35,396 nt of DNA from assembly GCA_937860145.1 (NCBI GenBank), contig CALMBF010000129.1, positions 1 to 35,396 on the forward strand. The letters are read 5' to 3'. This document shows, piece after piece, positions 17,175 to 35,396 of this stretch. The notes beneath the pieces were generated by a model. It saw nothing but the letters and a program-made list of their open reading frames with translations, had not been told where the DNA came from and searched no databases. Source of the DNA: an uncultured Geobacter sp. (lineage in GTDB: Bacteria; Desulfobacterota; Desulfuromonadia; Geobacterales; DSM-12255). A program made the translations under genes and the position numbers. Positions within the stretch are counted from its first letter, which is position 1; every line of letters starts with the position of its first letter.

Positions 17175-17185
17175 GGCAGAAAAAA

Positions 17186-17310
17186 TCAGCCGAGATCCGT
17201 TCCGGGAACGGATGCGGGGGACCCACTCAACAGGGGCGTATTACGGCTTGCGCGCCGTATAGAGGACTTTCAGCCTCGAGCCCGTCAGCTAACCTCGTAG
17301 GCATCTGGAA
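17186..17310 (+). ncRNA. c-di-AMP riboswitch (ydaO/yuaA type)
   Basis: The 3' part contains the family hallmark CCCGTCAGCTAACCTCG followed by TAGGC (17281-17302), which is the signature end of ydaO-type aptamers. The 5' part has AGCC (17188-17191) able to pair with GGC at 17300-17302, then the hairpin ATCCGTTC/GAACGGAT (17195-17213), GGGGGACC, a TACGGC/GCCGTA hairpin (17242-17259) and a GAGG/CCTC hairpin (17262-17277). These aptamers bind c-di-AMP and turn the gene off, which fits K+ importers because c-di-AMP rises with K+. The expression platform is the terminator at 17333. Boundaries are approximate. Confidence 0.88.
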
Positions 17311-17332
17311 GGGCTCGACAGCGGAGAGATAC

Positions 17333-17357
17333 CGCCGGTTCACGCCGGCGTTTTTTT
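17333..17357 (+). terminator. intrinsic terminator of the c-di-AMP riboswitch
   Basis: CGCCGG (17333-17338), loop TTCACG, CCGGCG (17345-17350), then seven Ts (17351-17357). It lies between the aptamer and the kup start, so it is the likely switch that stops kup transcription when c-di-AMP is bound. Confidence 0.85.
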
Positions 17358-17372
17358 ATTTCGCCTGTCAGC

Positions 17373-17395
17373 CCTGCAAGATTCTTTGCAGGAGG
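17373..17395 (+). promoter_or_regulatory. hairpin over the kup ribosome binding site
   Basis: CCTGCAA (17373-17379) pairs with TTGCAGG (17386-17392) around a six-base loop. The right arm overlaps CAGGAGG (17389-17395), the kup ribosome binding site 7 bases before ATG 17403. This gives a possible second, translational layer of control after the terminator. Confidence 0.45.
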
Positions 17396-17402
17396 CACAC
17401 AG

Positions 17403-19223: not shown

Positions 19224-19226
19224 GCC

Positions 19227-20810: not shown

Positions 20811-20836
20811 AAATCCTCGTCAGGGATGGAGGTTCT

Positions 20837-20856
20837 CCCCGGGTCGAAACCCGGGG
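20837..20856 (-). promoter_or_regulatory. stable UUCG-loop hairpin in the leader of the NERD gene
   Basis: On the minus strand CCCCGGGT and ACCCGGGG form an 8-bp stem closed by the loop TTCG, 26 bases ahead of the start codon. It lacks a T-run, so it is more likely a leader or stability hairpin than a terminator. Confidence 0.5.
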
Positions 20857-20880
20857 GAAGGGGCTACTCCCCATTGAGTT

Positions 20881-20889
20881 ATTCTACCA
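20881..20889 (-). promoter_or_regulatory. possible extended -10 promoter of the NERD gene
   Basis: Minus-strand TGGTAGAAT is an extended -10 element about 70 bases before the start at 20810. A TTGCCC lies 19 bases upstream of the hexamer as a poor -35. It sits just after the terminator of the cytochrome operon, where an independent promoter is needed. Confidence 0.35.
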
Positions 20890-20909
20890 AGCTTCTGCCG
20901 GAGCGGGGC

Positions 20910-20946
20910 AAAAAAAGCCCTGCGCGCTCCGTCGGAGGTGCAGGGC
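20910..20946 (-). terminator. intrinsic terminator at the end of the cytochrome operon
   Basis: Read on the minus strand, GCCCTGC (20946-20940) pairs with GCAGGGC (20923-20917), with an inner CTCC/GGAG stem, followed by seven Ts (20916-20910). It lies 27 bases after the stop of the OmcS-like gene. Confidence 0.9.
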
Positions 20947-20972
20947 AAGAGCGTGCCGGCTGAGCCGTCCCC

Positions 20973-22286
20973 TTATTGGGGTTGCACCTGGTGGCTGTCG
21001 TTCCAGTGGCACTTGTTGCAGAGCGACCCCTGGTTGATGGCGAAGCCGCCGGCATCCCGGCCGTACATCGCCTGCTGGTACTCCTGGACGGTCTTGCCCG
21101 TGGCGTTCTCCCCCTTCTGGCCGTCGATTGTCGGGGCGTTCGTCCCGGGCCAGGAACCGGAGACGGTCAGGTATGAACCGGGGGTCGTGTTCCAGCGGGT
21201 GGCGCTGCCCCAGGCCGAGGCGTGTGCCCGGTGGCAGGTGAGGCAGCTGACGTTGTTCCCCGCCGTTGCCCCGGCGGTGGAGGAGGTATCGGCCGCCAGG
21301 GCCGTGAGGTCACCCGTCCCCTCCTCGAACGGCACGAGGGAGGTGTAGGACGTGGCGATCGTCCCGGTGTAGAGGTACGACTTGAGGTAGGAGTTGTACT
21401 CGTCCGCCTCCGACTGCAGCTTGGCGGAGATCCCGGCGGGGTGGGACGCCACCGGCGAGGTCCCGGTCAGGGAGTGCTGGTAGGCGCCGTGGCAGTTGGC
21501 GCACCACTCGGACATGCCGCTGCCGTAGGCGACCCGCACATCCCCCGCCCCTTCGGAACGATTGTAGGTCGTGGGGGAGACGGCCACCGGCGGATTGTTG
21601 ACAAAGGCCGCGGCCGGCGTGGCGGCGACTGCCGCGGGGAGATAGCCCGCTCCACCCAGGAGCCGGTAGGAGCCGACCGCCTCGGTAGCCGTGGGGAGGG
21701 TGCCGTAGGAACCGGAGGCGAAGGTCGGCTTGCCGCCGGTTCCTACGGTTCCGTTCGTGTCGAGCTGGCGGTACCTGCCGTGGGGGTCGTGGCAGCTGGT
21801 GCACCCCAGGCCCGCTGCCGGGTAGGTGCCACCCGGTGCGACGCTGAACCGGCTGTCCGGGAAGTAGAGGAAATCGGCGGCCACGATGTTGTGGCCGTGG
21901 CTGTCGCCGCTGCTGGCGGTCACCTGTCCCGTAACGGAATTGACCCAGCTGTAGCTCTTCTGCAGGTAGGCGAAGTCGCCACCCGGGGTGAGCTGGACCG
22001 GGGGGGCTCCGGGAGCGGGGGGGGGAGAGGTCGCCACCCGGTACCCGTCTCCCGGGATCGACCCGGCATGGCAGAGGAGGCAGGTGGAGCTGGCATCGCT
22101 CCCCCGCAGGAGGTAGCGGTTGCCGGTCCCCGTCCCTGTGCCGACCCCCACCGGTTGCCCTTCGCTGGAGTTGTGCATGGTGTGGCAGCCGTCGCAGGAC
22201 GCTACCCCGCCGTCATGGAAGGCCGGAGCCTGGCCTGCCGTTGCGAGCAAAAGGGCGACTGCCGTGGCAATGGACGCTCTGTTCAT
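20973..22286 (-). CDS. OmcS-like hexahaem c-type cytochrome (nanowire subunit family)
   Basis: A 437-residue secreted cytochrome with six CxxCH sites: CDGCH, CLLCH, CTSCH, CANCH, CLTCH and CNKCH. A signal peptide ends at QAPA, leaving a mature N-terminus FHDGGVASCDGCHTMHNS. This matches OmcS of Geobacter, whose monomers polymerise into extracellular haem filaments. Mature His16 (in CHTMH), which from memory coordinates a haem of the neighbouring subunit in OmcS, is present, as are PGGTYPA, SCHDPHG, GMSEWCANCH and CHRAHAS. ATG 22286 is chosen over an upstream in-frame GTG (22298) because GAGG is correctly placed. It is the last gene of the operon. A second member of the family lies at the window's right edge, as omcS and omcT do in G. 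sulfurreducens. It could be an OmcT-like paralogue. Confidence 0.9.
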   Translation of the reverse strand: MNRASIATAVALLLATAGQAPAFHDGGVASCDGCHTMHNSSEGQPVGVGTGTGTGNRYLLRGSDASSTCLLCHAGSIPGDGYRVATSPPPAPGAPPVQLTPGGDFAYLQKSYSWVNSVTGQVTASSGDSHGHNIVAADFLYFPDSRFSVAPGGTYPAAGLGCTSCHDPHGRYRQLDTNGTVGTGGKPTFASGSYGTLPTATEAVGSYRLLGGAGYLPAAVAATPAAAFVNNPPVAVSPTTYNRSEGAGDVRVAYGSGMSEWCANCHGAYQHSLTGTSPVASHPAGISAKLQSEADEYNSYLKSYLYTGTIATSYTSLVPFEEGTGDLTALAADTSSTAGATAGNNVSCLTCHRAHASAWGSATRWNTTPGSYLTVSGSWPGTNAPTIDGQKGENATGKTVQEYQQAMYGRDAGGFAINQGSLCNKCHWNDSHQVQPQ

Positions 22287-22306
22287 GGAGCCTCGCACGG
22301 ATCGGG

Positions 22307-22642
22307 TCAGGGCTGTTGCGTGACCTTGTGGTAGGTTGCCTGCTGGCCGGTCCCCTCGAGGATGAACTCCTCACCCTCGAGGCGGCCGGTCAGGGTCCGG
22401 ATTTTCCCCTGGAAATCGATGTCGATCCTGACCCGGTTGGTGTTGTCCACGATCGACCAGGTGAACGCCAGGGAGGGGCGGTCCTTGACGACGAAGACGC
22501 CGCTCTTGTCGGCCCTGAATGCCACGGTTTCCGGGGTCTGGACGTTGCCCCAGAGACCGATCAGGTCGCTGCTGGTCTTGTTGCACCCCAGGATGAAGAT
22601 GACGACGATGGGGACGAGCTTTAAGGTAGATAGTGCCTTCAT
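22307..22642 (-). CDS. small predicted lipoprotein
   Basis: A 111-residue protein with a short signal peptide and a lipobox ending ILGC at Cys20, so it should be lipid-anchored after LspA cleavage. The mature part is rich in beta-strand patterns (AFRADKSGVFVV, RVRIDIDFQGKI, RLEGEEFIL), like small beta-sandwich or lipocalin-like domains, but no family is recognised. AAGGAG precedes the start. It lies 20 bases upstream of the OmcS-like gene and 37 after the Sel1 gene, inside the cytochrome operon. Confidence 0.75.
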   Translation of the reverse strand: MKALSTLKLVPIVVIFILGCNKTSSDLIGLWGNVQTPETVAFRADKSGVFVVKDRPSLAFTWSIVDNTNRVRIDIDFQGKIRTLTGRLEGEEFILEGTGQQATYHKVTQQP

Positions 22643-22679
22643 GCGTGCTCCTTGCGTTGTGAGTGAGGGTGGTGCAGGG

Positions 22680-23195
22680 CTACTGCTCCCCCATGACGGT
22701 GAGCAGCTTGCGGGCTCCGACGTGCCCCTGCCTGGCGGCCTTGCGGAGCCATTTCACCGCTTCCTTGCGGTCCTTGGGGACCCCTTCGCCGTTGGTGTAC
22801 ATGAGCCCGAGGTCGAACTGGGACTGGGCATGCCCCTGTTCCGCGGCTTTCCGGTACCAGGCGGCCGCTTCCTTCAGGTCCAGGGGGACTCCGTCCCCCT
22901 TGTCGTAGATCATGCCGAGATTGTTCTGGGCCCGGACATGCCCCTTGTCCGCGGCCCGGCGGAGCCAGCGGATCGCTTCGGCCTTGTCCGGCCGGACCCC
23001 TTCCCCCCGGTAGTACATGATCCCGAGGAGGTAGGCGGAGTCGGAGCTGCCGTCCTCCTTCAGGAGCTTCAGGGCGGTGGGGAAGTCCCGGTGCTGGTAG
23101 GCCTTCATCCCGGCGCTGAAATCGGCCCGGCTGGCCAGGGCCGAGAAGAGGCCGAGGAGCAGGGCAATGGACAGTCTGGTGGTGAGTCGTTTCAT
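22680..23195 (-). CDS. secreted Sel1-repeat (TPR-like) protein
   Basis: A 171-residue protein with a signal peptide (MKRLTTRLSIALLLGLFSAL) and three Sel1-type repeats of about 36 residues, each with the pattern LGxMYxxGxGV followed by EAxxWxRKAAxxGH. Such repeats form helical scaffolds for protein-protein contact. In this setting a periplasmic adaptor for cytochrome or outer-membrane assembly is plausible, but that is inference. It sits 23 bases after the NHL-repeat gene. Confidence 0.85.
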   Translation of the reverse strand: MKRLTTRLSIALLLGLFSALASRADFSAGMKAYQHRDFPTALKLLKEDGSSDSAYLLGIMYYRGEGVRPDKAEAIRWLRRAADKGHVRAQNNLGMIYDKGDGVPLDLKEAAAWYRKAAEQGHAQSQFDLGLMYTNGEGVPKDRKEAVKWLRKAARQGHVGARKLLTVMGEQ

Positions 23196-23218
23196 GGTCG
23201 GTTATCTCTCCCGGTTGG

Positions 23219-24115
23219 TTACTTGAGTGCTTCGAAGAGCTGGACCCGGTTGTTGTTCCGGTCGGCCACGACGATGGTGCTGCCGCAGACCGCCACCTGC
23301 CCCGGGTAGTAGAGCTGACCCTCCTTCCAGCCGAGGGTCGCGATCCGCCCCGTCGGGCTCCCGTCCGGCCCGAGGGTGGCGATGGTGCCGCCGTCCTGGT
23401 CCACGAGGAAGAGGCCGCCCCGGTCGTCGCTCGTCAGGTAGGTGGGGAAGCTGACGGACTCCTGCAGCTTCGCCGTGAGGGGGGAGAACGACTCCGCCCC
23501 GTTGCGGGCGATCAGCACGGCCCCCTTCGTGCCGTCCAGGAGGAGCAGGTCCCCCGAGGGGGTGACCGCCAGGTCCGAGGGGAAGCCGTGGTCACCCGGG
23601 AGGGGAACCTGCCTGATGAACGCTCCGGCCTGATTGAGGACCAGGACCCGCTGTCCGAACAGGTCGAGGAGGTAGATGGTGCCGCTCCCGTCGACCCGGA
23701 AGCTGCGGATGCTCATCGTCCCGGGTGCCGGGATCCCCTGGGGATCCAGGTAGCCGGCAAAGGCCCCGTCGGGGGTCAGGTGGACGATCCGGTGGAGGCG
23801 GCCGTCCAGGGCGTAGATGTCGCCCCCGGGGGCGAGCTGGAGCCGGAGGGGATAGGAGAGCTGGGGAACCTTGATCTCCGTTCCCCCCTTGACCCCGTCA
23901 CTCCCGAGGGTGAAGCGGAGCAGCCGGCCGTTGGCCGTGTCGGCAACGATAAGGGCCTTGTCGGTGCAGGCGACCCCCTCGGGTGCCTTGAGGCTCCCCC
24001 CCTTGTCGTCCTTGTAGAGGGAGGTGGTCTGTTTGTACTTGTCAGCGGCTGCCTGGCAGGCGAGGGGGAGCATGACGGCCAGGATCACGATGATGGGGAT
24101 GAACGATCGTCGCAT
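23219..24115 (-). CDS. secreted NHL-repeat beta-propeller protein
   Basis: A 298-residue protein with a signal peptide starting MRRSFIPIIVILAVMLPL. The mature part shows repeated blades such as APEGVACTDKALIVADTANG, YPLRLQLAPGGDIYALDG and a last VVADRNNNRVQLFE, as in NHL six-bladed propellers. The open frame extends 37 codons upstream into the 16-haem gene, but ATG 24115 has GAGGTG ahead and begins the signal peptide, five bases after the previous stop. There is a Cys after the hydrophobic stretch (LPLAC), yet the lipobox is imperfect, so lipidation is uncertain. NHL propellers are often encoded beside OmcS/OmcE-type cytochromes; their role is not established. Confidence 0.85.
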   Translation of the reverse strand: MRRSFIPIIVILAVMLPLACQAAADKYKQTTSLYKDDKGGSLKAPEGVACTDKALIVADTANGRLLRFTLGSDGVKGGTEIKVPQLSYPLRLQLAPGGDIYALDGRLHRIVHLTPDGAFAGYLDPQGIPAPGTMSIRSFRVDGSGTIYLLDLFGQRVLVLNQAGAFIRQVPLPGDHGFPSDLAVTPSGDLLLLDGTKGAVLIARNGAESFSPLTAKLQESVSFPTYLTSDDRGGLFLVDQDGGTIATLGPDGSPTGRIATLGWKEGQLYYPGQVAVCGSTIVVADRNNNRVQLFEALK

Positions 24116-24120
24116 GGTGG

Positions 24121-25401
24121 TCACCTCTTGAATTGCTCGTGGCACTGGACGCAGAGGTCGCTCGTGGTCGGGAACGGGATGAAGTGCTTGTAGTCGGTCC
24201 CGTGGGAACGGTGGCACGAGAGGCACTGCAGGGTCTGGTTCTTGTTGCGGGGGTCCTTCACCTTGTCACCGATTGGGTGGGTGGAGTGCTTCTGCCAGTC
24301 GTGGCACTTGCCGCACAGTTCGATGGTGGAGGCGTTGTTGACCAGGAACAGGTTATCCGACCCGTGGGGGTCGTGGCAGGCGATGCAGTTCCCCTCCATG
24401 ATCGGCTTGTGCTTGGTCACCGACTTCTCCTGCCGCTGGATGGTGTCCTTGTGGCAGGAACCGCACAGGGTGAGGAGGTCCCCCTTGATCAGCGCCTTCT
24501 GCCTGGAGGCGTGGGGGTTGTGGCAGGCGAGGCACCCCCGCCCGGCGAGCAGCGGCCAGTGGATCCGGTTCTTGCCCATGGCCGTGTTGACCATGTCGTT
24601 GTGGCACCCCTTGCAGAGCTCGAAACCGGTGCGCTTGGTCTTGAGAGGGTTCGCCGAACCGGCCTCCTCGTGGCACTGGTTGCACATCCTGTTGGCCACG
24701 GGCTTGTGCACGGTGTTGTAGAGGATGCTCGGACGGTCGGACCCGTGGGGGTCGTGGCAGGAGGTACAGCGGGAGCCTGCCACCGGGTAGTTCATGTGCT
24801 GCTTGATGAACAGGGGCTTGGTGGCATTGTGGCAGCCGAGGCAGAGGCCCGGGACGTCGCTCTTCAGCAGGAAGCCCCCCTTGGTCGAGGCGTGGGGGTC
24901 GTGGCAGGTGAGGCACCCCTTGGCCACCGGCGGGTGCTTGAACCTGGCCTTGGCCACCGCGTCACCCATCTCCTTGTGGCAGGAGAAGCAGAGGTCGTTC
25001 CCCCCCTTGACCAGGTTGGACTTGTTGGCGGCCGCGTGGGGGTCGTGGCACTTCATGCAGCTCCCCTCCCCCACGACCTTGTGGACGCTCTTGGCATCCG
25101 CCGGCACGACGCTACTGTGGCAGAGGCGGCAGATGGAGCCGGTCTCGGCGGCGAGCAGCTTGCCGTGGGAAGAGGCATGGGGGCTGTGGCAGCCGATGCA
25201 CTCCCCCGCCTTAAGGGGGGTGTGGACGAACGGCTTCTTCACCGTCTCCTGCATGTCGTTGTGGCAGTTCAGGCAGAGCTTGCCGCTTGCCCCCGGCTTG
25301 AGCTTGAATTTCAGGGCATTGTCCTCGGCCCGGACGATGCCGCCGGGCAGCAGCAGGAGGGCGAGGGTAAAGGCGATGGCTATGGTCAATCGTTGGGTCA
25401 T
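24121..25401 (-). CDS. 16-haem periplasmic c-type cytochrome
   Basis: A 426-residue protein with a signal peptide (cleavage after VRA) and sixteen CxxCH motifs. They come as eight two-haem modules of about 50 residues: a CxxCH followed by PHAS or PHGS, a leucine pair, then the next CxxCH and a free His that can act as distal ligand. This is the doubled-CXXCH family. No lipobox is visible, so a soluble periplasmic or secreted electron carrier is likely. GAGAGGAG precedes the start. It follows the related 26-haem gene by 12 bases, suggesting tandem duplication and module gain. Confidence 0.9.
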   Translation of the reverse strand: MTQRLTIAIAFTLALLLLPGGIVRAEDNALKFKLKPGASGKLCLNCHNDMQETVKKPFVHTPLKAGECIGCHSPHASSHGKLLAAETGSICRLCHSSVVPADAKSVHKVVGEGSCMKCHDPHAAANKSNLVKGGNDLCFSCHKEMGDAVAKARFKHPPVAKGCLTCHDPHASTKGGFLLKSDVPGLCLGCHNATKPLFIKQHMNYPVAGSRCTSCHDPHGSDRPSILYNTVHKPVANRMCNQCHEEAGSANPLKTKRTGFELCKGCHNDMVNTAMGKNRIHWPLLAGRGCLACHNPHASRQKALIKGDLLTLCGSCHKDTIQRQEKSVTKHKPIMEGNCIACHDPHGSDNLFLVNNASTIELCGKCHDWQKHSTHPIGDKVKDPRNKNQTLQCLSCHRSHGTDYKHFIPFPTTSDLCVQCHEQFKR

Positions 25402-25413
25402 GGCATGCTCCTC

Positions 25414-27387
25414 TCAGCGCTTCTCGACGATATGGCATTCGTCGCACGAGCGGGCGGCGAAGGGGGGATGGACCTCCTCCTTGAAGAACTTGGGGTCCTT
25501 CGATGCGTGGGGGTTGTGGCACTTCATGCAGTCCATCTGCTCCGGCGCGATGTTCAGGTGAGTCTTGGCAAAGGCCGGGGCCTTCATGTCGTGGCATTCG
25601 CCGCAGAGGCTGCGCTGGGGCTCGCTCAGCAGGACCCGCTCGGCCGAGTAGTGGGGCTTGTGGCAGGTCAGGCAGTTCTTCTGGGCCGGCGGATGGGGTG
25701 TCTCCTTGGTGAGCTTCTCCTTGACGGCCTTGTGGCAGGTGAGGCAGAGGTCGGGGCTCGGCGAAAGGAGCAGCTTGTTCAGCTTCGACTTGTGGGGGCT
25801 GTGGCACGTGGTGCACTCCCCCCCCACGACCGGGGCGTGGCCGCTCCCGGCACCCATCCTGGCCTTGCCCAGGTCGTCATGGCAGGTGGCGCAGAGGGTC
25901 GCCTGCTTCTCCACGAGCATGCCGGCCGTGGCACTGGCATGGGGATCGTGGCAGTTCAGGCAGTCGCCGCTGGCGAACGGCTCATGGTTGGTGCCGCCGG
26001 TCTCGGCCTTCATGAAATCGGCATGGCAGCGGCTGCAGACCTGGGTGACCGGGGCCTTGAGGAGTTTCTTCTCGTCGGAGCCGTGGGGTGAATGGCAGGC
26101 CATGCAGTTGCCGCTGGCCACCGGCCTGTGGGTATAGGTCATCTTGAACTTCAGTTCGGAATTGGAATGGCAGCCGAAACAGACGACCTCGGTGCGTGCC
26201 TTGAGCATCCCGGGGATGTTGGAGCCGTGGGGATCGTGGCAGGCGTTGCAGTCGCCGTCGGAGAAGGGGGTGTGGACATCCTTCCGCTTCAGGGTCTCCT
26301 TGACCTTGTCGTGGCAGGTATAGCAGAGGTCCGCCCCCTTGGCGACCAGGAGCCGCTTGTTGGCCGACCCATGGGGGGCATGGCAGGAGAGGCACCCCTT
26401 CCCGGTGGTCACGGCGCCGTGGGCGGCGCTCATCTTCTCACCCTTCTCCGTGTGGCATTCGATGCAGAGGCTGTTGCCGTCACGGGAAAGGAGCTTGGGG
26501 AACTCGGACGTATGGGGGTTGTGGCAGGAGAGGCACTCCCCGTCCTTGAAGGGCTGGTGGCTCACGCTCCCCCCCCCCTGCAGTTTGGCGACCTCGTGGC
26601 ACTGGTAGCAGAGCTCCGACCCCTTCTGGGTGACGGTGAACGGTTTCTCCGCATTCGCCGCCGGATGGCAGCCGTCGCAGCCGATGGTGGCCACGGGGTT
26701 GTGGGCGCTCGTCTTCAGCAGTTTCGGCTGGTTCGAGGAGTGGGGGGAGTGGCAGGCGATGCAGTTGCTCCCCTCCACCGGGTAGCCGCCGTGGGCTTTC
26801 TTGAAGGAAGCGGCACCGCTGTCGTGGCACTCCAGGCAGAGCTTGGGCACGGCCTTGCTGAGCAGGTTTTTGGTGTCGCTGCTGTGGGCGACGTGGCACG
26901 CCTTGCACCCCTCCTTGGTCAGGACCGGGTGCACCGTCTTCCTGGTGAACTCCTCCTTCTTGTGGCACTGGAAGCAGAGGTCGCTCCCCTCGGCCCGGAG
27001 GAGCTGTTTCGACGGGGAGGCGTGGGGGTTGTGGCAGACCGTGCACTTGCCCGTTTTGAGCGCGGAGTGGACGTTGGCCCGGTTCATGCCGATCTTCTCC
27101 TTGGCGTGGCACCGGAGGCAGAGCCCGTTCCCCCCCTCCTTGAGGATGAGCTTCGGCACGATACCGTGGCGCAGGTGGCACTCCTCGCATTTTTTCTCAG
27201 CCGTGACCTTGTGCACATCCTTCATGCCGAAGTAGGTGTCGTTGAACTTCTTGTGGCACGAGAGGCAATCCTTCTGGGCGAATTTCAGGGTCGCGGCGGT
27301 CGCGGTGCCGCCGGTCCCGGCCAGGAGCAGTGCGGCCATCATGGTGAGCAGCACCGGGAACATCCGCTTCATTCTTGACGCTGACAT
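25414..27387 (-). CDS. 26-haem c-type cytochrome made of repeated two-haem modules
   Basis: A 657-residue secreted protein with 26 CxxCH motifs by direct count, from CLSCH near residue 41 to CDECH eight residues before the end. The haem density is one per 25 residues. Thirteen modules of about 50 residues repeat the pattern CxxCHxPHxS, a Leu-Leu pair, CxxCH and a spaced His. The signal peptide ends near ATAA; no lipobox is present. ATG 27387 is chosen because GAGGA lies at the right distance. From memory, G. sulfurreducens carries a 26-haem cytochrome near omcS, which fits. A periplasm-spanning molecular wire feeding the outer-membrane filament is a reasonable inference, not shown. Confidence 0.92.
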   Translation of the reverse strand: MSASRMKRMFPVLLTMMAALLLAGTGGTATAATLKFAQKDCLSCHKKFNDTYFGMKDVHKVTAEKKCEECHLRHGIVPKLILKEGGNGLCLRCHAKEKIGMNRANVHSALKTGKCTVCHNPHASPSKQLLRAEGSDLCFQCHKKEEFTRKTVHPVLTKEGCKACHVAHSSDTKNLLSKAVPKLCLECHDSGAASFKKAHGGYPVEGSNCIACHSPHSSNQPKLLKTSAHNPVATIGCDGCHPAANAEKPFTVTQKGSELCYQCHEVAKLQGGGSVSHQPFKDGECLSCHNPHTSEFPKLLSRDGNSLCIECHTEKGEKMSAAHGAVTTGKGCLSCHAPHGSANKRLLVAKGADLCYTCHDKVKETLKRKDVHTPFSDGDCNACHDPHGSNIPGMLKARTEVVCFGCHSNSELKFKMTYTHRPVASGNCMACHSPHGSDEKKLLKAPVTQVCSRCHADFMKAETGGTNHEPFASGDCLNCHDPHASATAGMLVEKQATLCATCHDDLGKARMGAGSGHAPVVGGECTTCHSPHKSKLNKLLLSPSPDLCLTCHKAVKEKLTKETPHPPAQKNCLTCHKPHYSAERVLLSEPQRSLCGECHDMKAPAFAKTHLNIAPEQMDCMKCHNPHASKDPKFFKEEVHPPFAARSCDECHIVEKR

Positions 27388-27415
27388 GGCTAATCCTCGC
27401 TATGGTTGGTGATCG

Positions 27416-29194
27416 CTACCGGCCCTGGTCCGCCAGGTAGATCTTCACGGACGATGCCGCGCGCAGCTTGGCTCCCCACTCCTCAACCGACGTGGCGATC
27501 TTCTCGCCGAACAGTTTCTGGGCGATCGCTTTCCGCTCCTTTTCCAGGGGGCTCGGCTGGGGATTGATGACATCCAGGACCTGCACGGCATAGCTGTACC
27601 CCTCGGGGCTGGCATAGAGCCGGAAATCCCCCGGCTTGGCGCCGTCGATGGTCTGCTGCAGCTTCTCGGGAAGATTCCTGGTGATCACCGGCGTCGCTTC
27701 GAACTCCATGAGACCGGGGCTCTGGGCCGGGACCAGCCCCTCGGCATTGGCCTGGAGCCACTGGAACTCGGCCCCCTTGCGCAGCTTCTCGATGGCCGCC
27801 TCGGCCTGGCCCTGCTTGCCGAAGGCGAGTGCCTTCAATTTTACCATGGCCGGGGTGGAATAATCGGCGAGGTGGGCGGTGTAGTACTCCTGGACGTCGC
27901 CATTGGTCACCTTGATCTCCGGGACCACCACCTTGTCGACGAACAGGCCGAACACAAGGGACTCCTTGTACTTGCTGTTGGCCTGGCGATAGTCGTCGGA
28001 CTTGTCGATCCCCTGGCGCAGTGCCTCCTGCCTGAAGAGCCGTTTCAGGAGCATGTCCTCGATGGCCGGATACTTCCCTTCGTTGACCTTTTTCACCCTG
28101 ATCGCCTCGTCGACGCCGTGGAAGAACTTCTTCTGCATCTCTTCCGCCAGCAGGGCGACTGTGATCGGCTGTTCACCCTTGATCGCCACGATGACCCGCT
28201 TGTCCTTCAGCAGCTTCTTGAACCCGGGCTTGGGGGCCTCGAAGTCGAGCTTGTCGATGAGCTTCCGGTTGATTTTCGCCTGTTTCTTCTTCAGCCCTTC
28301 CCAGTACTCGTTCATGATCCGGGTTCCCCGGGCGTCGGTGGCCCGTGCCCGTGCCTCGGCCATGGCGGCGGCGTTCCCCTCTGGGTAGCGGATCTCCTCC
28401 AGTTTCACCACCGTGAAGCCGGTGCCGACCGGGATGACCGGTGTGGCCTCCCCCGCCTTCAGGGGGGCGAGGGCGGCGGCGATCTGGGGCAGGAGTTCCT
28501 GGGGCTTGACATACTCGCCCGTCTTCCCCCCCTCGGCCTTTTTGTCGTCGATGAGCTTGTCCGCCAGGGCGGCGAACTCACCCCCCCCGGCGAGCCCTTT
28601 GGCGAAGGCGTCCGCCGCCTCCTTCCCGTCGAACTTGACCGAACGGATCTTCCACTCCCGGACCAGCTGGCGGTAGGCCTCCTTCACCACCTCCGGGTCG
28701 GGGGTGAGGTCCTTCAACAGGCGCCGTTTCAGGACTTCGCGCAGACTCGACTCCTTGAAATCGGCCAGTAGCCGCTTCGCCTCCGGCAGTTCGTCGAGCC
28801 CCATGGTGAGCCCCTCCTGGAGGATCAGCCGGGCATTGATCAGCCGGTTCAGCACCTGGTCGAAATCCGTCTTCCCGGCCTTCCTCCCCCCCGTCCCCCC
28901 TTCGTGGAGAGCCTCCAGGGTGGTGACGAACTCATCGAGGAGGATCGGGTCGTCGTTGACCAGGGCCACGGGGGTCTGGCTGAAGCGGGGCGAGAAGGCC
29001 GGAACCTTCAGGGTGAGGGTGATGTCGTCGCCAGCGGGGGTTTTCTCCCCGGCCCCTTCACCGGCTTTGGCATTCCCTATGGCGGTGGGGCCGACGGCAG
29101 CCGGTGCCGGCGCCGTTTCTGCGGCAAAGGTGGCCGATACTCCGAACAGCATGAGTGTCGCTACAAGCTTCGCTACGTTGGCTGATGTTTTCAT
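27416..29194 (-). CDS. SurA/PpiC-type periplasmic peptidyl-prolyl isomerase with tandem chaperone-isomerase units
   Basis: A 592-residue exported protein. A signal peptide (ending TFA) is followed by a low-complexity linker and then two similar halves. The first (about 65-330) has a SurA-like start VALVNDDPILLDEFV and a parvulin-like part ending in GTGFTVVKLEEI. The second (about 350-590) repeats this with VIVAIKGEQPITVALL and a parvulin-like segment ending EGYSYAVQVLDV. Proteins of this type help fold outer-membrane barrels and secreted proteins. Neighbours include a beta-barrel and multihaem cytochromes, so it may be their dedicated foldase. ATG 29194 with AGGAG is preferred over the longer open frame. 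Confidence 0.85.
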   Translation of the reverse strand: MKTSANVAKLVATLMLFGVSATFAAETAPAPAAVGPTAIGNAKAGEGAGEKTPAGDDITLTLKVPAFSPRFSQTPVALVNDDPILLDEFVTTLEALHEGGTGGRKAGKTDFDQVLNRLINARLILQEGLTMGLDELPEAKRLLADFKESSLREVLKRRLLKDLTPDPEVVKEAYRQLVREWKIRSVKFDGKEAADAFAKGLAGGGEFAALADKLIDDKKAEGGKTGEYVKPQELLPQIAAALAPLKAGEATPVIPVGTGFTVVKLEEIRYPEGNAAAMAEARARATDARGTRIMNEYWEGLKKKQAKINRKLIDKLDFEAPKPGFKKLLKDKRVIVAIKGEQPITVALLAEEMQKKFFHGVDEAIRVKKVNEGKYPAIEDMLLKRLFRQEALRQGIDKSDDYRQANSKYKESLVFGLFVDKVVVPEIKVTNGDVQEYYTAHLADYSTPAMVKLKALAFGKQGQAEAAIEKLRKGAEFQWLQANAEGLVPAQSPGLMEFEATPVITRNLPEKLQQTIDGAKPGDFRLYASPEGYSYAVQVLDVINPQPSPLEKERKAIAQKLFGEKIATSVEEWGAKLRAASSVKIYLADQGR

Positions 29195-29259
29195 GGTGCT
29201 CCTTTTCGTTCTTCCTGGTGTTAGTTCCATCTGTGTCGTGGTGCGGACCGGGATGCCGG

Positions 29260-30372
29260 TCACGGTTGCCGGGCGGTGCCGGGTGGCACCAGCGTCTGTA
29301 CCGCCCCCCTGGTCATGGCCGCGGCCAGGGCGTTGGCCGTGGAGAGACGGCCGAGGTCGAACAGGTAGACCCGGTCGTCACCCCGGGCGTGGGTATCCAC
29401 TGCCCATCCCGCCTTCCGGTTGTCCCGGTTGAGCATCAGGGCGGTGAAATCCACCTTCGGTGCGCCGATGACCCCCTGGATATCGTCGTAATCGTTCACA
29501 TTGCCGGTGAAGAGGAGATCGACCCTCATGATGCCGAACACGAGCTCCGCGTCGGCCAGGGAGACCCCGTCTTCCATGATGATCCGGTACTGCAGGAGTT
29601 CCTGGCGTGCCACGCCGGGCTCGAGGACGCTGAACCGGCCGGCCTTGACCAGTTCCCTGATGAAATGGAGGGCCACGATCTCTCCCGCGTAACGCCGGCT
29701 GCTCTTGTTGAAGAAGGGGAGCACGGCCACGTTGTACCCCTTTCCCGGGTCGAGGGGCTGGTTCCTGAACACGCTCGCCGGCCTCAGCGCCGGACCCGTC
29801 CGCTCCCTCCCACCTTCTGCCAGCAGCCCCGCCACCAGCCGGTCCATGGCCACGGCGCGGAGCGTCTGCGGCTTGTCGATCAGCCCCATCCCCAGGAGTC
29901 CCGGCGTGTCGTCGCCGGCCAGGGCGGTGCTCTCCATGGCGAGGATCTTCGGGTCGCTCCCGGTGGAGACCAGCCGGGTCGTCAGGGCGATGCGGGGGGG
30001 GAAGCTTTCGCCATAGAGCTCCAGGGAGGTGACGGCCACGGCATCGACCCCGGCTTCCTGCCTGAAGGCGACCGCGTCGTCCCGGGTCACCCCCCCCACG
30101 TACCGGAGGCGGTGCCGGGTCATGAAGGCGTCCAGCTCCTTGTCCGGGAGCACCGTTATCCCCCTTGCCAGCAGCCTGGCGGCCAGCTCCTCCCGAATGG
30201 TCTTCAGGGGGGCAGCGCTCCCGCTCAGGTTGTCGACGGGGAGCACCGCGACCCGGGCGACGGGAACCGGGGTTCCCGGTGCCGGCATCCGCCCGGCGCA
30301 CCCCCCCAGAGCCAGGGCAAGGGCCAGGAGGCTGCGGGTAAGCTTACTGGAACAGTTTCCCGATGATCTCAT
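29260..30372 (-). CDS. CsgG-like lipoprotein with two related domains
   Basis: A 370-residue predicted lipoprotein (lipobox LGGC at about Cys25). Two segments have the start typical of the CsgG/LpoB/FlgO fold: VARVAVLPVDNLSGS near residue 38 and YNVAVLPFFNKSSRR near 214, each followed by a helix, an ITVL/FSVLE strand and later a LLFTGNV-type strand. CsgG forms the outer-membrane pore for curli subunits; relatives such as LpoB activate peptidoglycan synthesis. ATG 30372 overlaps the preceding gene by 29 bases with AAGG ahead; no later start keeps the signal peptide. A channel or platform for filament export is inference. The membrane-inserting hairpins of CsgG could not be identified with confidence. 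Confidence 0.75.
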   Translation of the reverse strand: MRSSGNCSSKLTRSLLALALALGGCAGRMPAPGTPVPVARVAVLPVDNLSGSAAPLKTIREELAARLLARGITVLPDKELDAFMTRHRLRYVGGVTRDDAVAFRQEAGVDAVAVTSLELYGESFPPRIALTTRLVSTGSDPKILAMESTALAGDDTPGLLGMGLIDKPQTLRAVAMDRLVAGLLAEGGRERTGPALRPASVFRNQPLDPGKGYNVAVLPFFNKSSRRYAGEIVALHFIRELVKAGRFSVLEPGVARQELLQYRIIMEDGVSLADAELVFGIMRVDLLFTGNVNDYDDIQGVIGAPKVDFTALMLNRDNRKAGWAVDTHARGDDRVYLFDLGRLSTANALAAAMTRGAVQTLVPPGTARQP

Positions 30373-30916
30373 CGATGGCCTTCACGGTTATGGTGTTCAT
30401 CGCCTCGCCGCCGCCGCCGAACAGGCGGTCGGAGATGCCGATCCCCCCCTTGGTGGTGGAGGCGGTCCAGACCAGCTTGCCGGTCTGGGCCTCGATCAGC
30501 TGCATGCTGAGGGAGATGACGTTGGCCGCCGAGCTCCCCGAGCGGACCTCTCCGTACTCCTTGATGGTGCCGGTAATGATGGCGTCGGCCTTGATGACGG
30601 CGGCCAGCTTGATCGCCTCTTCGGTGCTCGGTGCCGCCGGATTGGCCACCCCTACCCGGTTGAGCCCGCGGGCCACCTCGCCGGGGGGGATGACATAGAG
30701 GGAACCGGTCGCCAGCAGGGCGGTGCCGAACACGTCCCGCACGCGCTCGGCTGCCGAACTCTCCCTGGTCAGGTTGGCCAGGGGGAGTATGGCCACGGTG
30801 CGGACGGCGCCGAAGTCCATGTTGGCGTCGCGATACATATCCAGGGGTGCGGCGGCGCACCCGGCCAGTGCCATGGCGACCAGCAGCAGGAGAGCGCTTG
30901 TGAAACGTACAGTCAT
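30344..30916 (-). CDS. LpoB/CsgG-like lipoprotein
   Basis: A 190-residue predicted lipoprotein with lipobox ALAGC. The mature part shows VRTVAILPLANLT at the first strand, SLYVIPPGEVARGL, ADAIITGTIKEYGEV, SMQLIEAQTGKLVWTAS and a final helix, the usual order for the CsgG/LpoB/DUF799-type fold. ATG 30916 is chosen because GCGAGGA lies 7 bases ahead, whereas the longer frame has no site. It overlaps the next, larger CsgG-like gene, so the two products are probably made and used together. It is 32 bases after the beta-barrel gene. Confidence 0.8.
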   Translation of the reverse strand: MTVRFTSALLLLVAMALAGCAAAPLDMYRDANMDFGAVRTVAILPLANLTRESSAAERVRDVFGTALLATGSLYVIPPGEVARGLNRVGVANPAAPSTEEAIKLAAVIKADAIITGTIKEYGEVRSGSSAANVISLSMQLIEAQTGKLVWTASTTKGGIGISDRLFGGGGEAMNTITVKAIDEIIGKLFQ

Positions 30917-30948
30917 GAACATATCCTCGCAATCAAGAGAGTCACTCC

Positions 30949-33210
30949 TCAAAATGACATGCGCAGGTTTGCGCTGAAGGTTTCGGATGCGGTGGTCCCG
31001 GAGAGGGAGGTGGTGCGCAAGAACGGGTAGGAGAGCTCCAGGATGGCCCGATTGGTGATCTTCCAGGTGAGGCTCGGCGAAATCAGCCTGCTCCGCTCCT
31101 CGTTCAGGGTGCGGACGTTCTCCTGGTACGAACAGTTGAACTGCAGGGTGCCGTCCGGAAAGGGTGACCAGTTCAGGCCGTAGTTCTGGATCAGGTCGGT
31201 CTTGCGGTTCGTCTGCTGCAGCTGCCCCAGGGAGGCGAGGAGGTAGAGGTTGGTGAACGGGCGGTAGGTGATGCCGACATCACCGCGCCTGGTGTTCGAG
31301 GTCACGTCCCCCTGGTTCCCCCCGGACAGGTCCGTCCTGTTCAGGCTGTAGTTGACGCTCAGGGACAGGTCCCTGCGCGGCATGACGTTGAGGCTGGAGA
31401 TCATGTTGTAGGAGACGACCTTTTCCCCGGTCTGGTTGGTGGCATTGCTGGCGCCCCCGTTGAGGCTGAGGTTCACCCCCCGGTAGAGCTCGGCCGTATT
31501 GCTGAGGTAGAGGGAGTTGGAGGTGCTGGTCTGCCCCTGGAAGGTATCGGCGCGGCCGGCGTAGGCAAGGGTGTGGCTCAGGGTGCGCAGGGGGGTTACC
31601 CGCAGGGTGGCGGTGTAGGTGTAGGCCCCCCGGTGCCCCTGGGGTTCTTCGCCGTCCTCCCGGGCGACCCTGCCGCTGGCGCTGACCAGCTCGTTGAACT
31701 GGTGGTCCCCCTGGAGGGCGTTGCTCATGGTCCACTTGAGAAAGCCGTTCGGCGAGGTGCTCGCCAGGTAGAAGTTGGTGTTGTAGTAGAGGGCATGGTC
31801 CTGGAGGAGCCGTACCTTCATGTCCAGGTTGAGAATACTGGAGACAATGCTGGTGTGGCCCTGGGCAGTGGCGGCCGGGACCCGGTCGGAGGCTTCGATC
31901 CTGGTGACCGGCACGCTCAGGGCCAGGTTCGAGGAGGGGATCCCGCTTGCGATCAGCGCCTGCTGCACGCGCGACTCGTTGGCGTTGAGCTGGGTGACCA
32001 CCACCTTGACATACTGGGCCCTGGTCGTGTCGAAGACGATCTCGAACTGGTACATGACCGGATCGAACGTCACCGACTGGACCGTAACCTCCGTCCAGTG
32101 GCTGGCCGGCGTATTGTCCGGGCTCTGGTAGACGGTCCAGCTGTACAGGGGGGCGATATTCTTCCTGAAGTCATCCGCCTTGACCGGTGCGGAGCCGCTG
32201 GTGAACAGGGAGGGTGCAAGGGAGACCAGCACCCTGTTGACCGTCGTGGCGCCGTTGACGAAATCGAATCCCATGTTCTGTGACGGCGACTGGATTGCCG
32301 TCGTCGTCCCGATATCGATGGTGGCGTTACCGTCTACCAGTGCCTGGTTCGGCTCCAGCCTGCCGATGCTTGGATCGGCGAGCTGGGCGGAGAGCCCGAA
32401 GAGAGGCTGGGCTATCGGCAGGTTGACGAGTCCCGTGCCGCTGGTGGTGGTCGTCGTGGTCTGCTCGCTGATGTTGTAGGACGAGTAGAGCGACACCCGC
32501 TCCTGGAAAAACTGGCCGCTGTAGGTCGCCCGGGCGGCGTGGGTCACCTGGTTGACGTCGATCCTCTCCAGCTTGTCCGTATGGTCGTTGTAGGTCCCCG
32601 CGTAGCGGAGATCCAGCCCCCTGAGCTGGTAGGTGAGGCCGAGGGTGGCCCGGTCGTTGGTGGAATCCTGGAACAGTCGCTGGCCGTCGTAGATATTCGT
32701 CCTCTCCAGGTTGAGGCTGACGGCAGGGAGCCCCGCCGGGTGCCAGTTGAGGGTGCCGTGATAATCCTCGTTGTACGTATCCATGGTGGCGACGCCCGAC
32801 GAGCTGATGCTCTCCTTCCTCCTGTTGTACCCGGCGCTGGCGTTCAGGAGCTTGGAACCCAGGGTGAGGTCCCCGGAGGGGAGGCTGGTCGTGATCCTGG
32901 TATGGGTATCCTGGTCGCCGCTCGTGAGCCAGGTCTGATCGGTCTCGAACAGGTAGCCGGCACGCAGGGTCAGCAGGGGCAGCAGGTTCGTGTTCAGCAT
33001 CAGGTTGTATTTCTGGTTGAACGAGTTGGATCTGGTCATGGTGTCGTTGCCGGTAGCATCACTTGTTTTGGTCGTCATGTGGTTGTAATCCAGCTCCGTG
33101 AACCCGCTGAACACGTCGGCGCGGGCCATGAACGGCCGTGCCAGGGCTGCCGCGAGCGACAGGCCCGCCACGGCGGCAAACCGGAAGAAGGTGGAAACGC
33201 CGCACCGCAC
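30949..33210 (-). CDS. large outer-membrane beta-barrel protein with discoidin-like insert
   Basis: A 753-residue exported protein with a signal peptide ending MARA. Most of the chain shows alternating hydrophobic strands (LTLRAGYLFE, DLRYAGTYND, SLSVNYSLNR, LYLLASLGQL) and it ends in Phe (ANLRMSF), the usual outer-membrane sorting signal. About residues 275-400 look different: SWTVYQSPDN, HWTEVTVQSV and ARAQYVKVVV-type text resembles a discoidin (F5/8) beta-sandwich, probably an extracellular or plug-like insert. No haem motifs. The start is GTG 33210 with AAGG ahead, six bases after the previous stop. A porin for a porin-cytochrome conduit or for filament exit is plausible; homology to MtrB-type porins is not evident by eye. 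Confidence 0.8.
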   Translation of the reverse strand: MRCGVSTFFRFAAVAGLSLAAALARPFMARADVFSGFTELDYNHMTTKTSDATGNDTMTRSNSFNQKYNLMLNTNLLPLLTLRAGYLFETDQTWLTSGDQDTHTRITTSLPSGDLTLGSKLLNASAGYNRRKESISSSGVATMDTYNEDYHGTLNWHPAGLPAVSLNLERTNIYDGQRLFQDSTNDRATLGLTYQLRGLDLRYAGTYNDHTDKLERIDVNQVTHAARATYSGQFFQERVSLYSSYNISEQTTTTTTSGTGLVNLPIAQPLFGLSAQLADPSIGRLEPNQALVDGNATIDIGTTTAIQSPSQNMGFDFVNGATTVNRVLVSLAPSLFTSGSAPVKADDFRKNIAPLYSWTVYQSPDNTPASHWTEVTVQSVTFDPVMYQFEIVFDTTRAQYVKVVVTQLNANESRVQQALIASGIPSSNLALSVPVTRIEASDRVPAATAQGHTSIVSSILNLDMKVRLLQDHALYYNTNFYLASTSPNGFLKWTMSNALQGDHQFNELVSASGRVAREDGEEPQGHRGAYTYTATLRVTPLRTLSHTLAYAGRADTFQGQTSTSNSLYLSNTAELYRGVNLSLNGGASNATNQTGEKVVSYNMISSLNVMPRRDLSLSVNYSLNRTDLSGGNQGDVTSNTRRGDVGITYRPFTNLYLLASLGQLQQTNRKTDLIQNYGLNWSPFPDGTLQFNCSYQENVRTLNEERSRLISPSLTWKITNRAILELSYPFLRTTSLSGTTASETFSANLRMSF

Positions 33211-33216
33211 GGAGCC

Positions 33217-34620
33217 TTACCTCTCGCCCATCAGTGCCACCCGGCCCGGTTCTCCCCCCAGGTCGAGCTCGTCCTCGACCCGGTAGTCCGCCAGGTTGAC
33301 GACCTGCAGCGAATGCCGGCGGGCGTTCCCCACGTACAGCCTGTTCTCCTCGCCGTCAATGGTCAGGTAGCCGGCACTCCCGCCGATGCTGATCGTTGCC
33401 AGCCTGGTGAAGGAGAAGGGCTCATAGACCTCGGCCTGGGCGTCATGCCGTTTCCCGGCGTAGACCAGGTCGGTCAGGGGGTCCACTTTCAGGGAGGTCA
33501 TCCCCATCCCCACATACTGCCGCTGCTGCTGCGCCATGGTGACCGGGTTGTACACCGTCAGGTACGAGCCGAGGTCGTGGATCACGTACAGCTTGTCCCC
33601 GGCCCGGCTGAAGCTGCCCCGGGATGCCCCCGGTTCGGAGGGGACGGTGATCACGACCGACCGCCTCCCCACGTCGAGGACGGAGATCGTGGAGGCGAAC
33701 CCGTTGAACACGTAGGCCCGCTGGCCGGCGGGGTCGATGAGGATCGAGGAGGGGCCGTCCCCGACAGGGACCCGCGTGTTCTCGAAGTAGGAGAGGGGAT
33801 CGATGAAGCTGACCGTGTTGGAGCCGGGGTTGACCGAGAGCAGGGTCCTGCCGTCCGGGGTCAGGGCCAGTTCGGTCGGTCCATCCCCGGCGAGGAGCCG
33901 GATACGGCGCACCTCTTCGCCGGTGACGATGTCGATGACCGCGATGGCGTCCTCGCCGGACAGGGCCACGTAGGCGCGCTTGCGCTGCTGGTCGAACACC
34001 AGCCCCCGGGGCTCTTTCCCCGTGGCGATAACCCCGACCACCTGCCGGTTCTGCTTGTCGAACACGGTGATCGAGTTGGCCGCGGGAGTGGTGGCGTAGC
34101 CGGTCAGGCCGGCCACCGGCCGTCCGGGCATGCGTATGGTGAACATCGGCGCAAAGGAGAACCGTTGGCGCACCGACGTGGGATAGTCGAAGGTCAGGGT
34201 CAGGAGCTGGGCCTGCTGGCGACGGACCGTGAAGGGGAAATCAAGCAGGGTGGCTTCCGTGCCGGCCAACAGGGAGGCGTCCGCCTCGTCGGTTTTCAAC
34301 CGTGGTTTGCTCGCGCGCAGGGCCAGGCCACGGTACGTTCCGGGGGGGATGCGTCCCGATGCCAGGAATCGTTGCCTCCGGAGCTCGGGGCCGGCCAGGT
34401 CGTGGAGGGAGAGGTCCAGGGGGAATTCGGCGCCGTCCTCGCGGACCGCGGCGACGGAATCCAGGGTGAAGCTGAGCCGGTCGCTTTCCCGGGGGAAGGG
34501 CTGGAGATAGAGAACCAGCTCGCTCTCCTCGTTCAGGACGGGTTTGAGCATGGCCAACTGGGTCTGGCAACCGGTGAGAACCAGGAGGACAATCATGGTG
34601 AAAAACGTTCGTACGTGCAC
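33217..34620 (-). CDS. YVTN-type beta-propeller lipoprotein
   Basis: A 467-residue predicted lipoprotein with lipobox LTGC at Cys17 (signal peptide beginning with the GTG at 34620, AAGGGA ahead). Residues about 25-150 form a beta-rich domain (ELVLYLQPF, FTLDSVAAVRED, PPGTYRGLALRAS) similar to DUF4382-like carbohydrate or surface modules. Residues about 155-467 are a propeller with repeats such as SITVFDKQNRQVVGVI, AIAVIDIVTGEEV, NTVSFIDPLS and TISVLDVGRRSV. It is the first gene of the ten-gene unit and has no catalytic signature. A surface or outer-membrane scaffold is likely. The open frame extends far upstream, but that part lacks coding character and covers the terminator. Confidence 0.82.
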   Translation of the reverse strand: MHVRTFFTMIVLLVLTGCQTQLAMLKPVLNEESELVLYLQPFPRESDRLSFTLDSVAAVREDGAEFPLDLSLHDLAGPELRRQRFLASGRIPPGTYRGLALRASKPRLKTDEADASLLAGTEATLLDFPFTVRRQQAQLLTLTFDYPTSVRQRFSFAPMFTIRMPGRPVAGLTGYATTPAANSITVFDKQNRQVVGVIATGKEPRGLVFDQQRKRAYVALSGEDAIAVIDIVTGEEVRRIRLLAGDGPTELALTPDGRTLLSVNPGSNTVSFIDPLSYFENTRVPVGDGPSSILIDPAGQRAYVFNGFASTISVLDVGRRSVVITVPSEPGASRGSFSRAGDKLYVIHDLGSYLTVYNPVTMAQQQRQYVGMGMTSLKVDPLTDLVYAGKRHDAQAEVYEPFSFTRLATISIGGSAGYLTIDGEENRLYVGNARRHSLQVVNLADYRVEDELDLGGEPGRVALMGER

Positions 34621-34737
34621 AACGGATCCCTTGTATCTGCTCCTCGGGAAACAGTCCGGTCCATGGGGCGGACAATTGCATTTCATCGGTGCTGCACTGT
34701 TACGACTCACGGTGGCAAACCGGTGAGTTGGTGAGCG

Positions 34738-34769
34738 AAAAACGGGGGCTGACCCGCAGGCCAGCCCCC
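34738..34769 (-). terminator. intrinsic terminator after the right-hand OmcS-like gene
   Basis: On the minus strand GGGGGCTG-type arm (34769-34762 and 34751-34744) forms an 8-bp GC-rich stem with a ten-base loop and is followed by GTTTTT (34743-34738). A further hairpin GGTGCC/GGCACC lies at 34779-34798. It separates the right OmcS-like gene from the ten-gene unit, so a promoter should lie in 34621-34737, but none with good -35/-10 hexamers is visible. Confidence 0.85.
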
Positions 34770-34810
34770 CCTTTCGATGGTGCCTCAGCAGCGGCACCGT
34801 GCCACCAGGA

Positions 34811-35396
34811 TTAATCCTTGGCGTGGCACTTGTTGCAGAGCGACCGCTGGTAGGTGGCGAAGTTGGTTGCCGGACGGTCATAGAAGGTGGCCTGGATTTC
34901 GGCCTGGGTCTTGCCCTGGTTGTACTGGCCGTAGCCGCCTTCACCGGCAACGCCCGTGCCCGGGTAGGCACCGGCAACGGTGAGGAACTCGGCCTTGTTG
35001 TTCCAGCGGGTCATGCTGTCCCAGCCGGAGGCGTGGGCACGGTGGCAGGAGAGGCACATGACGTTGGAGTTGGCGTCGGCACCGGTGGTGACGGAGCCGT
35101 CGATGACCGCATGGCTAGCCAGCGCGGCGCGGTCCTTGGTCCCTTCCTCGAAGGGGACGAGGGAGGTGTAGGCGGTGCCGACCGAACCGGAGAAGTCGCC
35201 GGATTTCACGTAGGCGTTGTAGTTGCCGAGGATGGTGGCCCCGAGCTTGGAGTCGCTGCTGGCCGGGTGGATGAAGCTCGCGCCGCTGTCATAGTCGGCG
35301 GTGGAGTTGTGGATATTGGTGTGGCAGTTGGAGCACCACTCGGACATGCCGGTACCGTAGGCAACGCGGGTGTCGGTGGTCGTCTCTTTCCGGTTG
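34811..35396 (-). CDS. OmcS-like multihaem cytochrome, C-terminal part (cut by window edge)
   Basis: The visible 194 residues are the C-terminal part of a cytochrome whose start lies beyond the window. Three CxxCH sites are present (CSNCH, CLSCH, CNKCH) and the end is LCNKCHAKD, identical to my recollection of the OmcS C-terminus. Segments GMSEWCSNCH, YTSLVPFEEGT, MCLSCHRAHASGWDSMTRWN and YDRPATNFATYQRSLC align with the complete family member at 20973-22286 and with OmcS. If full length, it should have six haems. It is closer to OmcS than the left copy is, so this may be the main filament subunit. The gene ends at its own terminator. Confidence 0.88.
   Translation of the reverse strand, partial: NRKETTTDTRVAYGTGMSEWCSNCHTNIHNSTADYDSGASFIHPASSDSKLGATILGNYNAYVKSGDFSGSVGTAYTSLVPFEEGTKDRAALASHAVIDGSVTTGADANSNVMCLSCHRAHASGWDSMTRWNNKAEFLTVAGAYPGTGVAGEGGYGQYNQGKTQAEIQATFYDRPATNFATYQRSLCNKCHAKD

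Follow-up and report, generated by a model that had tools for sequence, protein, structure and literature searches.

The osc (omcS-companion) operon of Geobacter sulfurreducens contains omcS (GSU2504), omcT (GSU2503) and oscC (GSU2501), followed by an eight-gene block, GSU2500-GSU2493, that has been tied to maturation and secretion of the cytochrome OmcS (PMC13194489; PMC12977616, after Shen et al. 2025; these and the other articles are cited from the sections of each that were available). The roles proposed in that organism are folding for OscH, secretion for OscE, OscF and OscG, and filament form for OscD (PMC13194489; PMC12977616), and GSU2495 is described as a 26-haem protein (PMC12977616). 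We analyzed a 35,396-nucleotide stretch from an uncultured Geobacter sp. (contig CALMBF010000129.1 of assembly GCA_937860145.1, here C129; this whole contig is called the window), in which an earlier note had picked out a run of cytochrome, lipoprotein and barrel genes as a candidate unit for the production and export of cytochrome nanowires. The idea of such a cluster is already published. Our sequence comparisons indicate that the window locus is very probably an osc cluster, making OmcS-type cytochrome filaments.

Osc letters were given by position, with oscC (GSU2501) and the 26-haem gene oscI (GSU2495) as anchors. Compared by published description, the window matches GSU2500-GSU2493 gene by gene: eight accessory genes, D to K, share one strand and a fixed order, with an OmcS-like hexahaem gene directly upstream; the fifth gene of the block encodes a protein with peptidyl-prolyl isomerase (PPIase) domains and the sixth a 26-haem cytochrome, the place that GSU2495 holds by count. 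All osc genes of the window are on the minus strand. The block begins with an oscD-like gene for a beta-propeller lipoprotein (33217-34620; proposed start GTG at 34620 or ATG at 34596, with the longest open reading frame (ORF) reaching 34977; lipobox LTGC by eye), followed by genes for an oscE-like outer-membrane beta-barrel of 753 amino acids (30949-33210), an oscF-like lipoprotein with a single PelC/GNA1162/LpoB-like domain (30344-30952; lipobox LAGC by eye) and an oscG-like lipoprotein with a PelC/LpoB-like fold, apparently in two tandem domains (29260-30372). The oscH-like double PPIase (27416-29263) matches PF13145 (E 7.2e-24) and PF00639 (E 1.1e-6), and precedes, by haem motifs and Pfam, an oscI-like 26-haem cytochrome (25414-27387) and an oscJ-like 16-haem cytochrome (24121-25401). 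The last gene of the block encodes an oscK-like NHL propeller protein (23219-24115; ATG at 24115 proposed, longest ORF to 24226).

Three further genes follow outside the eight-gene block, encoding a Sel1-repeat protein (22680-23195, from Pfam), a small lipoprotein of 111 amino acids, slp (22307-22642), without a Pfam match and with homologues in a similar place in relatives, and a full-length OmcS-like hexahaem cytochrome, hexDown (20973-22298). The ORF list and Pfam confirmed that the genes named in the earlier note are all present and co-oriented, with -29 to +37 nucleotides between neighboring genes in the run from oscD through hexDown if the over-long ORF starts of oscD and oscK are disregarded. 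CXXCH motifs number 26 in the oscI-like gene product, 16 in the oscJ-like and six in hexDown, and the Pfam matches in the cluster are Rotamase, Rotamase_2, Sel1, NHL, a YncE-like propeller and GNA1162/LpoB.

The second OmcS-like gene that had been noted immediately upstream, hexUp, is there as well but is cut by the window end, which leaves its C-terminal 194 codons (34811-35396) in the oscC position. Its front lies on contig C26 from the same genome (L004:2-796), which shares an 11-base overlap with the window end and joins it in frame to give an intact hexahaem protein of 456 amino acids; the N-terminal part with residue H16, discussed below, is encoded on the C26 portion. Beyond hexUp, C26 carries in the same orientation an NHL propeller gene, a histidine kinase gene and a response regulator gene. 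The haem 2 motif of hexUp is CX4CH (CLMSGCH), and near relatives have six CXXCH motifs.

The barrel gene oscE was found in 26 of the 97 genomes searched, the window's genome included, and a collection-wide scan gave 33 named barrel loci, among them loci from Nitrospirota, Rokubacteria, Acidobacteriota, Schekmanbacteria and a metagenome-assembled genome of Syntrophaceae. The full set of eight occurs in order, without a strand change, in 45/58 loci, that is, in 24/25 loci from relatives of the same taxonomic order and 21/33 named loci; loci from Nitrospirota, Rokubacteria and Acidobacteriota are among those that keep the order. Thirteen loci are common to the two sets, all of them complete, so that 32 of 45 distinct loci are complete; in the other 13 the order is kept among the same-strand genes shown. 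Incomplete loci have contig-end cuts, strand switches, inserted genes (L083) or a missing gene. Most of the loci shown have an OmcS-like hexahaem gene upstream, and, duplicates included, homologues have 26 haems in 50/50 full-length oscI products and 16 haems in 48/49 oscJ products. The gene-order comparison that the earlier note had called for thus found the accessory genes kept beside OmcS-type genes, and in view of the conserved order a chance adjacency was rejected. In some loci from Nitrospirota and Rokubacteria, the cytochrome half was seen on the opposite strand (L075, L090), or on it together with the PPIase gene (L068, L069 and L070, Nitrospirota).

Both hexUp and hexDown match OmcS (PDB 6ef8) over its length, with E-values of 8.7e-63 for the window part of hexUp and 3.8e-100 for hexDown. 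Like OmcS (PDB 6ef8, 6nef), they have six haems and all 12 axial histidines, with 55% (hexUp) and 48% (hexDown) identity to it; the window part of hexUp is 53% identical to hexDown. In the tree of homologues, however, they fall in other subfamilies than OmcS, and searches of the window genome found these two hexahaem genes and no OmcS-clade member, in contrast to G. sulfurreducens. The best OmcS match in a family search over 48 genomes was 72% identical; G. sulfurreducens is seemingly not among these genomes, nor was it returned by the named scan.

Relatives of the same order show two arrangements. In the first, an OmcS-clade gene and an oscC-type gene lie upstream of the block; in the second, which is that of the window, the upstream genes are, with variations, those for a response regulator, a kinase and an NHL protein and one hexahaem gene. 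The window also differs from G. sulfurreducens in its extra 3' genes. The succession of Sel1, slp and hexahaem gene after oscK is found in the window and in four Geomonas-type loci (L033-L036), each with an slp match. The hexDown clade has 11 rows and full support in the Shimodaira-Hasegawa-like approximate likelihood ratio test (SH-aLRT 100); others of its members are encoded on the opposite strand (G014, G017, G026) or a different contig (G080). Some loci of the first arrangement (L050, L051, L057) have the order hexahaem, small lipoprotein, Sel1 after oscK, with Sel1 on the other strand in L047. The available sections of PMC12977616 describe upstream hexahaem patterns and hexahaem duplications elsewhere in G. 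bemidjiensis, and make no mention of downstream ones. Two things are beyond the published accounts consulted: the 3' extension (Sel1, slp, hexDown) common to the window and Geomonas, and a hexahaem paralogue in relatives, described below, in which H16 is lost.

With respect to the export parts, the earlier note had spoken of two CsgG/LpoB-like lipoproteins. The first, OscF, is indeed GNA1162/LpoB-like by Pfam, and a profile search gave PelC at E 2.3e-6, with PelC and GNA1162 among the matches and CsgG absent from them. OscG has no Pfam match; its model (predicted local distance difference test score (pLDDT) 86.8, predicted template modelling score (pTM) 0.85) repeats one helix/strand pattern twice, and its best solved matches are chains of the PelC dodecamer (Foldseek E 6.8e-9, TMt 0.81), with GNA1162, LpoB and CsgG ranking below them. 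Its profile matches PelC in the second half, and OscG thus appears from the model to consist of two PelC-like domains in tandem. It has an LpoB/PelC/CsgG-type core in common with the CsgG curli pore (CsgG rows at E ~1e-3), but PelC, GNA1162 and LpoB chains outscore CsgG. A PelC/LpoB-type alpha-beta fold behind a lipobox, the lipoboxes being read by eye, is what is seen in both proteins, and this likeness suits lipoproteins that serve an export barrel. In the PelBC layout, a ring lies under a barrel. Since PelC works with the PelB barrel (PDB 9h80), OscE with OscF and OscG is perhaps better compared, by analogy, with PelB-PelC than with the CsgG pore. The osc cluster shares with the PelB-PelC exopolysaccharide exporter (PDB 9h80, 5t11) an outer-membrane barrel and PelC-fold lipoproteins; it differs in the two apparent PelC-like domains within the single OscG chain and in its proposed cargo, which is protein. 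The OscE model (pLDDT 84.4, pTM 0.57) is a large barrel, in which a stretch inserted at about residues 257-433 is modelled with less certainty. This insert (31912-32442), between the N- and C-terminal strands, has a conserved RYIKVV-like motif and could be a plug or binding domain.

In OmcS, 11 of the 12 axial histidines come from the subunit itself and one, at haem 5, from the neighbor (PMC6584659; PMC7096707). A CXXCHxxH motif follows haems 1, 3 and 5, giving H16, H147 and H335. The donor to the haem 5 of the neighbor is, we presume, His16 of mature OmcS. The sequence favors this assignment, since of the three CXXCHxxH motifs only the first would lack a preceding odd haem to serve within its own subunit. 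We aligned 120 OmcS homologues, consisting of 92 ORFs from stretches of 29 same-order genomes, 25 sequences from named loci, OmcS and the two window proteins; 8 of 100 candidate ORFs had been dropped for want of an OmcS match at 1e-10, and short fragments and weak matches are not all included. Three of the 120 rows, including the single row from one genome, miss the N-terminus and were left out of the counts. All 12 histidines are present in 84/117 rows, which include both window proteins and two L064 rows identical to G099 rows; the other 33 rows are without H16.

Hexahaem subunits would leave the cytoplasm by Sec and receive their haems in the periplasm, as is suggested mostly by the reports on G. 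sulfurreducens, with the double PPIase OscH helping them to fold, and would leave through the outer membrane via the OscE barrel and the PelC-like OscF and OscG. They would then polymerize head to tail, H16 after the first haem motif completing haem 5 of the neighbor. The propellers OscD and OscK may act in filament form or surface handling, and a hairpin 3' of hexUp might keep subunit output in excess of the machinery. We infer that the 26- and 16-haem proteins probably bring electrons to the filament, the part that the earlier note had described as electron supply in one unit. A different function, in which OscE sheathes OscI or OscJ as a porin-cytochrome conduit and passes electrons instead of subunits, draws on the multihaem proteins of the same operon and on Foldseek, where MtrB of the Mtr complex is the best match of the OscE model by E-value (1.1e-8). 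The template modelling score (TM-score) to MtrB is just 0.35, however, and unrelated barrels follow closely; scores by query length are 0.20-0.35 among the 50 matches listed, and other barrels lead in a second structural comparison (Z 13-18, root-mean-square deviation 6.5-14.7). PelB is in neither match list, and as many unrelated barrels matched, no named family is claimed for OscE, which may or may not be related to MtrB, ushers, LptD or PelB. A conduit would also not explain why the PPIase and the PelC-like lipoproteins are there, and we regard it as unlikely.

It is also unlikely that hexahaems of the window type are monomers, secreted or at the cell surface, that leave by the same exporter, with OmcS filaments a later use of it, even though these hexahaems lie outside the OmcS clade and the cluster may, as has been suggested, first have served secretion and later been adopted for nanowires (PMC12977616). 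Against such monomers stands H16, which is kept in 39/39 upstream hexahaem genes on the same strand as the block as well as in both window proteins. Since one axial histidine of OmcS serves the neighboring molecule (PMC6584659), this upkeep suggests polymerization. A cluster for nanowire production and export, the reading that we prefer, is supported by the match to GSU2500-GSU2493 and by the conserved order. Several points weigh against it. OscE resembles many barrels with no clear best family, and we infer filament formation by the window hexahaems, as neither falls in the OmcS clade. A 2025 review that cites Shen et al. 2025 deems the secretion mechanism and anchoring speculative (PMC12307469); the remark in the earlier note that export is poorly understood is nonetheless partly outdated by the osc reports. 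The same review states that loss of the PilA-N pilin abolishes extracellular OmcS, so that a pilus-driven export route is also in print (PMC12307469), and whether G. sulfurreducens needs OmcS to respire is a matter of dispute (PMC13194489).

The lead provided by the 33 rows without H16 comes from relatives, since both hexahaems of the window genome keep this residue. Every one of the 33 keeps the other eleven histidines (a one-column shift at H2 in G039 was read as an alignment slip), and none has any histidine in the loop of residues 14-46. At least one such H16-minus gene is present in 24 of the 25 oscE-bearing relatives of the same order; G080 has none. As for position, 17 of them lie downstream on the same strand, three downstream on the other strand, two upstream on the other strand, seven on another contig and one far away, and three belong to genomes for which no barrel place was tabulated. 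The two upstream genes (G034:C11:461897 and G089:C3:16076; L180, L181) have an extra CXXCH before the usual N-terminus. A role of the H16-minus proteins as lipoprotein anchors was rejected, as the eight positions that precede the mature start contain no cysteine in 32/33 rows, the exception being G099_C70.

A quick tree, built without OmcS residues 1-25, shows two changes at H16, in a clade of 22 (SH-aLRT 99) and in 11 members of a clade of 12 (SH-aLRT 100). The approximately unbiased (AU) test rejected a single origin of the loss (p-AU 0.0164), for a group that was chosen after the data had been seen and on this quick tree. At the base of the second clade, G084:C93:32051 (L161) keeps H16 and is a possible intermediate. 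Among 109 columns conserved at 85% or more in rows with H16, those that fall below half in both H16-minus clades are H16, S18 and L37, all near the N-terminus. A182 does so in the larger clade alone, and L38, D42, W88, D116 and Y290 in the smaller clade alone, so that the change in the smaller clade is not limited to the N-terminus. Over columns 295-404 no value is below 0.64 (V326, one clade). Within loop 14-46, the two H16-minus clades have mean pairwise identities of 28% and 33%, compared to 54%, 64% and 71% in three groups with H16 (oscC, omcS and hexDown control rows, chosen by genome and position and not by tree). In segment 328-407 the values are 63% and 70% versus 60%, 82% and 76%, and over the whole chain 54% and 67% versus 62%, 74% and 71%. 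The loop and segment values indicate drift in the donor loop and far less of it at the acceptor end.

An H16-minus protein could accept a subunit at its haem 5/6 end and could not bind likewise at its haem 1 end, and would therefore start or cap a chain and set its polarity. In chaperone-usher pili, the tip adhesin is likewise without a donor strand. We tentatively suggest from these sequence patterns that OmcS-type filaments may have a dedicated terminal subunit, the H16-minus paralogue, in which H16 would have been lost at least twice, once per cluster arrangement; this is a possibility to which we give less than even weight. The loss of H16 would also suit a monomeric cytochrome whose haem 5 is open, but such a protein would not obviously fit the conserved acceptor end. 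Further points limit the end-piece reading. Several H16-minus genes lie away from the cluster, and two or three such genes occur in some genomes. In 19 further genomes reached via named loci, nearly all outside the order, two have an H16-minus row (L210, and L222, a divergent 345-amino-acid frame) among 38 rows, a few of them cut or repeated; with two of 19, the cluster does not in general require an H16-minus subunit. By titles and abstracts, in a search whose coverage left out most subscription papers, nothing was apparent on capped or terminal OmcS-type subunits.

Regarding regulation, the two terminators that had been said to bound the run correspond to hairpins at 34769-34744 and 20946-20910 on the minus strand. 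The first, G+C-rich with a T tail and attenuator-like, lies between hexUp and oscD and was listed by the terminator scan; the second, with a T run 3' of hexDown, was seen by eye, the scan (loop limit 8) not listing it. Terminator-like sites found by scan are no commoner than in shuffled sequence (10 vs 11.0, standard deviation 3.3). Similar hairpins occur within about 80 nucleotides after the upstream hexahaem gene in a number of window-type loci and of loci from other phyla, for example in L033, L037, L039, L041, L070, L071 and L075, and several loci of the first arrangement have a short hexahaem-oscD gap with a scan match further inside. The overall tally of 51/54 is not a conservation figure, because it includes matches inside oscD and has no shuffled control. 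No typical sigma-70 promoter was found in 19000-35396, where shuffles give 1.6.

Elsewhere in the window, a c-di-AMP riboswitch (Rfam RF00379, 79.9 bits) directly precedes a gene for a Kup-type potassium transporter (17178-19223). Beside the latter are kdpC (12631-13203), kdpD (13615-16425) and a response regulator gene (16415-17125). Between these potassium genes and the osc cluster, a minus-strand gene (19227-20810) encodes a protein with a C-terminal nuclease-related domain (NERD).

Collectively, these results add one more osc cluster, which carries a 3' extension, and confirm how widely the cluster is spread. If the proposal of a terminal subunit is true, a single deletion, that of the gene for the end-piece, would be enough to test the nucleation, polarity, length and anchoring of cytochrome filaments.

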